Source: an uncultured Stenotrophomonas sp. (lineage in GTDB: Bacteria; Pseudomonadota; Gammaproteobacteria; Xanthomonadales; Xanthomonadaceae). From it: a stretch of 64,000 bases of DNA. Shown here one piece after another: positions 58,957 through 60,977 of this stretch. Within the stretch, counting starts at the first letter, position 1; the number at the start of each line of letters is the position of its first letter. The position numbers were made by a program, and so were the translations under genes. The stretch is taken from positions 496,001 through 560,000 of the forward strand of contig NZ_CAJYVQ010000002.1 of assembly GCF_913778665.1 (NCBI RefSeq), given 5' to 3'. A model generated the notes under the pieces. The model had not been told where the DNA came from. It saw only the letters and a program-made list of their open reading frames with translations, and searched no databases.

Positions 58957-58958
58957 AG

Positions 58959-58986
58959 CGTGACGCCGGGCCATGCCCGGCGGGAC
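58959..58986. repeat. REP-like palindrome downstream of dapE
   Basis: CGTGACGCCGGGCC/ATGCCCGGCGGGACG stem just after the dapE stop; same core as the element at 14790 but with GTGA in place of GTAG. It probably ends or protects the dap transcript before the asnB leader begins. Confidence 0.7.
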
Positions 58987-59009
58987 GCACCTGGTTGCCA
59001 ACGCAACTG

Positions 59010-59038
59010 TTGCGCCGCGCCCGAAACCGGGGTACGGT
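59010..59038 (+). promoter_or_regulatory. Candidate promoter of the asnB leader
   Basis: -35-like TTGCGC (59010-59015), 17-base spacer, -10-like TACGGT (59033-59038). The -10 ends seven bases before the leader ATG at 59046, the same distance as at map, and no ribosome-binding site precedes that ATG. The leader RNA is probably leaderless. Confidence 0.45.
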
Positions 59039-59045
59039 CGATCCC

Positions 59046-59147
59046 ATGTCGATCCGCCTGGCCACCGCCGTCAACAACAACGACCGCAATAATCTGCGCG
59101 CGAATAATCGTGCGCGGCCGATGCGGGACTGCGCCCTGGGTAGATAG
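59046..59147 (+). CDS. Asn-rich leader peptide of asnB (predicted)
   Basis: 33-codon frame beginning MSIRLATAV and ending CALGR, TAG at 59145. Seven of its 33 codons are Asn, in three runs: AAC x3 at 59073-59081, AAT x2 at 59088-59093 and AAT x2 at 59103-59108. Such a run of the codon for the end product of the downstream enzyme is the hallmark of amino-acid attenuator leader peptides (as Trp codons in trpL, His in hisL). The peptide itself likely has no function. It is 138 bases from the asnB ATG. Either ATG-led leaderless initiation or weak initiation must be assumed. Confidence 0.75.
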   Translation: MSIRLATAVNNNDRNNLRANNRARPMRDCALGR

Positions 59148-59203
59148 ACAGCAACACACGCCCGGACACCAGAAAACCCGCATCGGCCGATGCGGGTTTT
59201 TTT
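59094..59203 (+). promoter_or_regulatory. Asparagine-responsive transcription attenuator of asnB (predicted)
   Basis: Three mutually exclusive pairings are visible. Hairpin 1: 59094-59103 with 59108-59117 (10 bp with two G-U, loop carrying the last AAT AAT). Antiterminator: 59116-59127 with 59177-59188 (12 bp, perfect). Terminator: 59177-59184 with 59189-59196, then seven T. The sequence CCGATGCGGG occurs twice (59118-59127 and 59187-59196), so either copy can pair with 59177-59186. Ribosomes stalled at Asn codons for lack of Asn-tRNA would favour the antiterminator. Caveat: the leader stop lies past the first copy, so the coupling geometry differs from trp. Confidence 0.75.
59177..59203 (+). 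terminator. Intrinsic terminator in the asnB leader
   Basis: A perfect 20-base palindrome (CCCGCATCGG and its inverse, 59177-59196) followed by seven T (59197-59203), 83 bases before the asnB start codon and with no gene ending nearby to need it. This placement marks it as an attenuator rather than an operon end. Confidence 0.9.
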
Positions 59204-59285
59204 GTGCCCGGGCGCAGCCTTCCCGGGCCTGGATGGCCGGTCGAACACCTTCCCCTCGTGAAATCCCCCCAACAGGAGCTCCGCC

Positions 59286-60977
59286 ATGTGTTCGATCTTC
59301 GGAATCTTCGGCCTGCAGGCCGGTGACGATCTTCCCGCCCTGCGCCGCCACGCGCTGGAACTGTCGCAGCGCCAGCGCCACCGGGGCCCGGACTGGAGCG
59401 GCGTGTACCTGGACGAAGGCGCACTGCTGGTGCACGAGCGGCTGGCCATCGTCGATCCGGCCGGCGGCTCGCAACCGCTGCTGTCGGCCGATGGCCAGCT
59501 GGCGCTGGCAGTGAACGGCGAGATCTACAACCACCAGGCGTTGAAGGCTGCGTTGACCACCGCCTACGACTTCCAGACCGGCTCGGACTGCGAAGTGATC
59601 AACGCGCTGTACCGCCAGGGCCGATCGCCGGCGCAGTGGCTGGAGCAGCTCAACGGCATCTTCGCCTTCGCGCTGTGGGACCGTGACAGTGGCCGGGTGC
59701 TGGTGGCACGCGACCCGATCGGCGTGGTGCCGCTGTACTGGGGCCACGATGCGCAGGGGCGCCTGCGCGTGGCCTCGGAGATGAAGGCGCTGGTCGATTC
59801 CTGCGCCGATGTCGCGCAGTTCCCGCCGGGCCATTATTTCGACAGCACCAGTGGCGAGCTGGTGCGCTACTACCGGCAGCCGTGGCGCGAGTACGCGGAT
59901 GTGCAGGGCCGCCAGGCTGACCTGGCTGAGCTTCGCCAAGCCTTCGAACATGCGGTGGAGCGCCAGTTGATGAGCGACGTGCCGTACGGCGTGCTGCTGT
60001 CCGGTGGCCTGGACTCATCACTGGTCGCTGCCGTAGCCGCACGCTATGCACGCCGCCGCATCGAGGATGGCGGGCAGACCGAGGCCTGGTGGCCGCGCCT
60101 GCACTCTTTCGCGATCGGGCTGAAGGGCTCGCCCGACCTGGCCGCTGCCGCGGTTGCCGCCGAGGCGCTGGGTACCGTGCACCACGGCTTCGAATATACC
60201 TTCGAAGAAGGCCTGGACGCGCTGCCGGAAGTGATCCGCCACATCGAAACCTACGACGTCACCACCATCCGCGCGTCGACGCCGATGTTCCTGCTGGCGC
60301 GACGGATCAAGGCAATGGGGGTGAAGATGGTGCTGTCCGGCGAGGGCAGCGATGAGATCTTCGGTGGCTACCTGTACTTCCACAAGGCACCGGATGCGCG
60401 CGAATTCCACGACGAGCTGGTGCGCAAGCTCGATGCCTTGCACAACTACGACTGCCTGCGTGCCAACAAGTCGATGATGGCCTGGGGTGTGGAGCCGCGC
60501 GTACCCTTCCTGGACCGCGAGTTCCTCGACGTGGCGATGCGTTTCGATGCCGCGCACAAGATGGTTGGTGCAGGCTTCGGTGGCCGTCGCATCGAGAAGG
60601 CGGTGCTGCGCGAGGCGTTCGATGGCTATCTGCCGGACAGCATCCTGTGGCGGCAGAAGGAGCAGTTCAGCGATGGCGTCGGCTACGGCTGGATCGACGG
60701 GCTGAAGGCGCATGCCGAATCGCAGGTGAGCGACCGTGTGCTGGCGGCCGCCGACAAGCGCTTCCCGCACAACCCGCCGCTGACCAAGGAGGCGTACTAC
60801 TACCGCCATCTGTTCGAGCAGTTCTTCCCGAGTCGTGCGGCCGCCGAGACCGTGCCGGGCGGCAAGTCGATCGCCTGTTCATCGCCGGCAGCGATCGCCT
60901 GGGACGCCAGCTTCGCGGCGGCGGCCGATCCTTCCGGACGCGCGATCGCCGGCGTTCACGAGCAAGCCCTGGCCTGA
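59286..60977 (+). CDS. asnB: Asparagine synthase B (glutamine-hydrolysing)
   Basis: 563-residue cytoplasmic enzyme making asparagine from aspartate, glutamine and ATP. N-terminal class II glutaminase with nucleophile Cys2 (MCSIFGIFG), RHRGPDWSG and NGEIYNH. The synthetase domain has the PP-loop SGGLDSS (residues 239-245) and SGEGSDEIFGGY. Ends with a variable tail like E. coli AsnB (554). AGGAG at 59272-59276 gives strong translation. It lies downstream of an Asn-codon leader and intrinsic terminator, so expression should rise when charged Asn-tRNA is scarce. Separate transcription unit from dapE. Confidence 0.96.
   Translation: MCSIFGIFGLQAGDDLPALRRHALELSQRQRHRGPDWSGVYLDEGALLVHERLAIVDPAGGSQPLLSADGQLALAVNGEIYNHQALKAALTTAYDFQTGSDCEVINALYRQGRSPAQWLEQLNGIFAFALWDRDSGRVLVARDPIGVVPLYWGHDAQGRLRVASEMKALVDSCADVAQFPPGHYFDSTSGELVRYYRQPWREYADVQGRQADLAELRQAFEHAVERQLMSDVPYGVLLSGGLDSSLVAAVAARYARRRIEDGGQTEAWWPRLHSFAIGLKGSPDLAAAAVAAEALGTVHHGFEYTFEEGLDALPEVIRHIETYDVTTIRASTPMFLLARRIKAMGVKMVLSGEGSDEIFGGYLYFHKAPDAREFHDELVRKLDALHNYDCLRANKSMMAWGVEPRVPFLDREFLDVAMRFDAAHKMVGAGFGGRRIEKAVLREAFDGYLPDSILWRQKEQFSDGVGYGWIDGLKAHAESQVSDRVLAAADKRFPHNPPLTKEAYYYRHLFEQFFPSRAAAETVPGGKSIACSSPAAIAWDASFAAAADPSGRAIAGVHEQALA

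Follow-up and report, generated by a model that had tools for sequence, protein, structure and literature searches.

Introduction

Leader-peptide attenuators of Proteobacteria are known for His, Trp, Thr, Leu, Ile/Val and Phe, while Gram-positive bacteria carry asparagine-specific T-boxes in front of asn genes. Like the leader that we propose upstream of asnB, these T-boxes let the charging of tRNA(Asn) act through a terminator; unlike it, they bind the tRNA directly and have no translated leader, and a T-box match is absent at the asnB leader. In the same bacterial order as our locus, leaders of the LVLVLI type precede ilvC and ilvD. They resemble the asnB leader in layout and are found by the same covariance model, but contain branched-chain codons and belong to ilv genes.

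Leader-peptide attenuators are described for operons of amino-acid synthesis, namely his, trp, leu, thr, ilvGMEDA, ilvBN and pheA (PMC1183508). Such elements combine a short frame with many codons for the product amino acid, a terminator before the gene and a competing antiterminator, all of which recur at asnB. In contrast to this type, the asnB leader uses Asn codons, holds one antiterminator strand (A) inside the frame near its end, and probably lies on a leaderless mRNA. Another point of comparison is rnTrpL of Sinorhizobium meliloti, an RNA that begins at the trpL ATG and for which a role in trans is reported (PMC7298713). The predicted asnB leader RNA would likewise have its 5' end at the leader start codon, whereas rnTrpL concerns tryptophan, belongs to Alphaproteobacteria and has a trans role reported for it but not for the asnB leader.

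The preliminary description of this locus, made from the sequence, supposed that an asparagine attenuator may be undescribed. Our search of the open-access literature agrees, which is no proof: among the matches listed there was no asparagine leader-peptide attenuator, and an earlier mention is possible. The word stem asparagin is absent from the main text of PMC2965389, PMC1262725, PMC8632094, PMC9413887 and PMC1183508. XCV1533 (AsnB2), which is not mapped to the asnB studied here, showed no change in the sX13 test (PMC3771888). The asnB leader is very probably a known type of mechanism used for an amino acid not found among those described in the literature searched. If so, asparagine becomes one more of the few amino acids that bacteria sense through stalled ribosomes, here in relatives of Xanthomonas, Stenotrophomonas and Lysobacter and in these genera themselves, and a directly testable rule for the control of asparagine synthesis follows.

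Results

Layout of the dapE–asnB interval

We analyzed a 64,000-nucleotide stretch (the window) of a 4.4 Mb Stenotrophomonas genome (G000); all coordinates below refer to its forward strand. Between dapE (NCBIfam TIGR01246, 544 bits) and asnB lies a frame of 33 codons plus TAG (59046–59147; ATG at 59046, TAG at 59145–59147), encoding the 33-residue peptide MSIRLATAVNNNDRNNLRANNRARPMRDCALGR. Its putative regulatory codons form three runs, Asn10–Asn12 (AAC AAC AAC, 59073–59081), Asn15–Asn16 (AAT AAT, 59088–59093) and Asn20–Asn21 (AAT AAT, 59103–59108). When the 329-base gap was dinucleotide-shuffled 2000 times, no such frame arose, the maximum being four Asn in runs per short frame against seven in the real sequence; no other frame of 8–60 codons with at least four Asn in runs was found on either strand of the 64 kb window.

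Downstream of the Asn runs, a repeat search identified an exact 13-nt repeat, CGGCCGATGCGGG, at 59115–59127 and 59184–59196. The upstream copy constitutes antiterminator strand A and lies inside the leader frame, around the Arg-Pro-Met-Arg codons. The downstream copy contains the 3' arm of an intrinsic terminator (59177–59203), which comprises an 8-bp GC-rich stem, a GGCC loop and a T7 tract; its palindrome, CCCGCATC-GGCC-GATGCGGG, occupies 59177–59196 and the T7 tract 59197–59203. The assignment draws on the sequence and on helix covariation; a simple consensus terminator scan did not report 59177–59203, and the palindrome is plain from the sequence and the repeat search. Strand B (59177–59189), made of the terminator 5' arm and the loop, has two possible partners, A in the antiterminator and C in the terminator. 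The antiterminator duplex (59115–59127 with 59177–59189) is 13 bp long and 100% complementary.

The regulated gene of the proposed scheme, asnB (59286–60977), encodes a glutamine-hydrolysing asparagine synthase B (NCBIfam NF006949, 864 bits, cut-off 499) with 98% identity to that of Stenotrophomonas maltophilia LMG 978 (L001). Its ATG (59286) follows the terminator end by about 82 nt, and a Shine-Dalgarno-like AGGAG (59274–59278), read from the sequence, falls outside the terminator. The preliminary description had placed the 33-codon frame with its seven Asn codons and the terminator where we find them, and its gene names, including that of a downstream gene making asparagine, are borne out by NCBIfam. 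It had also recognized an exact repeated block in the upstream region and the terminator 3' arm, and an alternative pairing through the terminator 5' arm; both stand, with their lengths revised from 10 bases to 13 nt and from 12 to 13 bp. A separate GC-rich imperfect hairpin without a T tract lies directly 3' of the dapE stop codon (58958–58988).

A promoter-like −35 element, TTGCGC (59010–59015), read from the sequence, is separated by 17 nt from a −10 element, TACGGT (59033–59038), which sequence and alignment place 7 nt before the leader ATG. Before the predicted starts of the 68 leaders described below, the alignment has T at −35 in 92%, a −10-like block and C at −1 in 94%, a conservation somewhat favoured by construction since the motif guided the choice of starts. 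A NANNNT hexamer occurs 6–7 nt before the start in 42 of the 68 loci and at another distance in 8, and was not found in 18. A sigma-70 consensus scan of the window did not report TTGCGC/TACGGT. The fixed distance of the motif predicts a start of transcription near 59045–59046 and hence a leader mRNA that is probably leaderless. In a number of Lysobacter loci this −10-like block (GCAGGAT) could also be a Shine-Dalgarno sequence.

Conservation of the leader among relatives

Relatives were collected by scanning GTDB genomes for AsnB protein and taking the best 80 loci. The leader is present before asnB in 67 of these, giving 68 leaders with that of the window. All 67 are labelled Lysobacterales or one of its genera except L012 and L013, labelled only Pseudomonadota/Proteobacteria; the genera include Stenotrophomonas, Xanthomonas, Pseudoxanthomonas, Lysobacter, Luteimonas, Thermomonas, Arenimonas, Rhodanobacter, Dyella, Luteibacter and others. 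The leader is absent, with frames judged by eye, from 12 loci labelled outside the order (L034, L038, L067, L069, L070 and L073–L079), and L037, with 60 bases upstream only, was left outside this judgement. Three of the 12 (L034, L038 and L067) encode an AsnB 74–80% identical to that of the window yet lack the leader, so a similar gene is not always accompanied by it. The AsnB of L034 (80%, on a contig labelled Holophagales) and of L038 (74%, Rhodococcus) is Lysobacterales-like; these leader-free loci would be mislabelled bins or transfers.

The 68 leaders are 21 to 44 codons long and contain 3 to 9 Asn each (median 6), with a run of at least two in 66. Asn accounts for 428 of their 2349 codons (18.2%) against 1.5% in the asnB genes. 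The codons are mixed (226 AAC and 202 AAT), so it is the codon meaning that is kept rather than the nucleotides, and AAT makes up 47% of them in the leaders versus 13% in the adjacent asnB, a strong shift toward the non-preferred codon. Outside the Asn runs and strand A, the peptides vary strongly in sequence between genera. The predicted start is ATG in 67 leaders and GTG in one. Starts were at first set by the most Asn-rich frame, which was often doubtful, and then chosen again by the aligned upstream motif; outside the window they are predictions among 1 to 5 candidates per locus.

Pairing and covariation of two competing helices

Strand A pairs with the B strand of its own locus at a mean of −20.04 kcal/mol (68 loci), versus a mean of −16.61 kcal/mol (sd 0.40, best −17.97) when B strands were permuted among loci (n = 2000). 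The own A–B duplex surpassed the mean of the other B strands in 54 of 68 loci, and reached p ≤ 0.05 against shuffled A regions in 42 of 68; in this duplex-energy test the A region of L053 and L057 was shortened by a late Asn codon.

A first alignment covered 56 leaders; absent from it were one near duplicate and eleven further loci of the 68, several of these with weak antiterminators. Pair counts were redone on all 68, and the values given here are these, lower than but similar to those from 56. In the antiterminator helix 72.4% of cells are paired, compared with 30–41% when partners are slid by 1–3 columns; in the terminator helix the corresponding values are 92.1% and 21–52%. Cells changed on both sides number 68 in the antiterminator and 100 in the terminator, with covariation scores of 0.164 and 0.339, respectively. 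For both helices, 0 of 500 column shuffles reached the observed paired fraction, two-sided cells or covariation score. The number of pairs with a two-sided change was unexceptional, being reached by 43 of 500 shuffles for the antiterminator and 340 for the terminator, as was the number of further pair types (307 and 463 of 500, respectively). Since column shuffles ignore relatedness, more weight is due to the slid controls and to individual concrete changes.

The most clear-cut of these changes concerns the antiterminator pair of alignment columns 71–141, where five Lysobacter-group loci (L020, L024, L025, L026 and L039) have A-U in place of G-C and none of the 67 rows with letters is unpaired. 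In the same five loci the terminator partner is still G, giving a U-G wobble at that position of B. An A-U pair in the antiterminator together with U-G in the terminator argues that A followed B independently of C; the five changes may represent one event. In L007, too, strand A and the loop portion of B have changed in step (GGTC with GACC). The preliminary description had made its case depend on conservation of the Asn runs and of the alternative pairing among relatives, and across the 68 loci the Asn-rich leaders are kept and both helices exceed their slid controls, with compensatory changes.

Folding with a blocked ribosome footprint

We modelled leader folding with the nucleotides under a ribosome made unavailable for pairing; the size of this footprint and the treatment at equilibrium are assumptions of the model. 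For the window, the antiterminator was predicted with the ribosome at Asn10, 12, 15, 16, 20 or 21 and the terminator with the ribosome at Arg22 or the stop codon, and the free full-length leader folded as terminator. When the transcript ended before C, the antiterminator still formed with the ribosome at the stop. In partition functions over the 68 loci, the mean antiterminator probability was 0.72 at Asn codons and 0.05 downstream, and it was higher at Asn than downstream in 68 of 68, a direction that is partly built in because A sits just behind the last Asn run. Almost no antiterminator was predicted for L071. With the leader ended before C and no ribosome, the mean was 0.64, the antiterminator being favoured in many loci, so that a protecting hairpin by which an untranslated leader would terminate is no more than putative.

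With the ribosome at the stop codon, the antiterminator was less likely than at the Asn codons in 65 of 68 loci, the exceptions being L001, L027 and L055. For the window itself the difference was negligible (0.998 at the stop versus 0.999 at the Asn codons). Here, as in L001, the stop codon lies 19 nt past strand A (the stretch 59128–59147), farther than in most relatives, so that a ribosome halted there would leave A largely uncovered. As a stop-bound ribosome is no hindrance to the antiterminator in the model for the window, L001, L027 and L055, termination in these loci would come about through passage of the ribosome, its release or refolding of A upstream.

Range of the element and related leaders

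A covariance model built from the 56 leaders was run with strict filters on 200 genomes of the order. Among the genomes listed, matches with E ≤ 1e-8 occurred in 33 of 36 from the window's family, while the counts for families f12 and f2 are 28 of at least 33 and 3 of 3, respectively; 26 genomes without a match carry no family name in this tally. The three f2 matches, inspected singly, have Asn runs before asnB, and most of the other matches are known by model score alone. In the remaining families of the order the best match (2.0e-6, G134) is a leader before ilvD. Among 369 genomes of the class only four matches fell below 1e-8, all in the window's family; the best other (1.2e-6) is known by its score alone.

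Inspection of 19 covariance-model matches found five before ilvC, two before ilvD and four before asnB (L130, L131, L132 and L134; in L134 just two Asn stand side by side). The other eight were rejected, as they look like ordinary sequence with a terminator, including one in G067 at 2.3e-8. The LVLVLI-type leaders before ilvC (L121, L122, L123, L127 and L128) and the similar ones before ilvD (L129 and L135), with genes named by NCBIfam, are an unplanned positive control for attenuator architecture. L128 belongs to the window's own genome (G000:C8:206500-208900, match 208361–208435, minus strand); its leader ends SLRSILVLVLITQPTGAGRASV and a terminator precedes ilvC.

In other Gammaproteobacteria outside the order, AsnB (E ≤ 1e-100) was found in 26 genomes, and a comparable Asn leader before asnB in none of 24 loci (L161–L184). 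Two AT-rich candidates among them, L162 and L179, have four Asn in runs and were set aside, no terminator being visible by eye. A search of the whole window against Rfam gave no family at gathering score. Permissive filters (E up to 10) gave 20 sub-threshold matches over the gap, with portions of the Thr and Leu leaders as well as sRNAs among them, and none of which is a T-box or riboswitch; Thr_leader (RF00506) scored 22.2 of 55 bits and Leu_leader (RF00512) 19.3 of 50 bits, below the gathering score.

Discussion

We consider it highly likely, on grounds of sequence and comparison, that the element is a ribosome-mediated attenuator tying asnB expression to how far tRNA(Asn) is charged. Transcription would start at or beside the leader ATG, with a ribosome translating the leader behind the polymerase. 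When Asn-tRNA is ample, the ribosome would pass the Asn codons and cover A (59115–59127) while B is being made; with A covered, B would pair with C and transcription would stop at about 59203. Under a shortage of Asn-tRNA, the ribosome would stall on one of the three Asn runs and leave A free to pair with the emerging B, so that no terminator would form and the polymerase would read into asnB in response to low asparagine. Beyond the preliminary description, our analysis adds the 13-nt repeat, the probably leaderless mRNA, the taxonomic range and the caveat about the position of the stop codon. The AAU enrichment (47% versus 13%) also opens a way to examine which codons attenuators use.

A broader reading joins several claims: an asparagine attenuator ancestral to Xanthomonadaceae and Rhodanobacteraceae, on a leaderless mRNA, enriched in AAU, serving as the main control of asparagine supply where Asn-tRNA comes only from free asparagine, and with a leader RNA or peptide that perhaps acts in trans. 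We regard it as unlikely that all of these hold together.

The alternative that best survives retains the attenuator and adds an action in trans of the terminated leader RNA or of the peptide, as reported for S. meliloti trpL. The predicted leaderless mRNA does resemble rnTrpL, with its 5' end at the trpL ATG (PMC7298713); the strong variation of the peptides between genera outside the Asn runs and A offers no hint that the peptide has a conserved role, and we judge this addition improbable. Control of asnB by stalling, acting mainly through RNA stability, Rho or asnB translation instead of the intrinsic terminator, would suit the long distances between terminator and asnB in several loci (up to 222 nt in L040) and the T tracts that are short or broken in some terminators, e.g., L014 and L066. 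The window's own terminator, however, has its T7 tract, ends about 82 nt before asnB and leaves AGGAG outside, and the 92.1% of paired terminator cells over 68 loci likewise make this reading very improbable.

A terminator that merely ends dapE transcription, with a chance repeat and an untranslated Asn-rich frame, would fit the window, where dapE is directly upstream. Among the 65 leader loci with at least 700 nt upstream, however, only 16 carry dapE in the 1.5 kb upstream, indicating that the element travels with asnB and not with dapE. This count largely refutes the dapE reading, and the conserved Asn content, the conserved A–B helix with its compensatory changes and the 0 of 2000 shuffles yielding such a frame also speak against it, making it extremely improbable. 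A T-box or riboswitch sensing asparagine beside an incidental short frame, for which the Asn-specific T-boxes of Gram-positive bacteria would be a precedent, has next to no probability, given that Rfam offered no family at gathering score in the window and neither class among the 20 gap matches, and that what is conserved is a set of codons plus a single shared arm, not an aptamer.

The metabolic setting agrees with the attenuator proposed here, since Asn-tRNA is a sensible gauge of free asparagine in cells that make this tRNA by AsnRS only. In the window genome AsnRS is present (634 bits, cut-off 343), GatB was not found, and AsnA, searched for in this genome, was not found either, suggesting that Asn-tRNA(Asn) should report free asparagine. 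The same genome encodes two longer AsnB-like amidotransferases of 647 and 633 aa (L082 on G000:C10 and L083 on G000:C12), which score above the TIGR01536 cut-off and below those of AsnB (NF006949) and the XrtA amidotransferase. With these two further asparagine-synthase-like proteins, AsnB may not be the sole source of asparagine.

We sampled 45 genomes from the 200-genome scan, 26 with and 19 without the leader. All 26 of the former have an AsnB of at least 74% identity, AsnRS and no GatB. Seven of the latter have a more distant AsnB (62–70%) and no GatB, and the leader is absent upstream of it in the six of these that were inspected (all but G067). The 12 genomes without this AsnB comprise nine with a full GatB, one with a fragment (G004) and two with neither (G116 and G170), which are possibly asparagine auxotrophs or rely on a different route. 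GatB and AsnB occurred together in 0 of the 33 AsnB genomes in the sample of 45. In G019, AsnRS does not rise above its cut-off and GatB is present.
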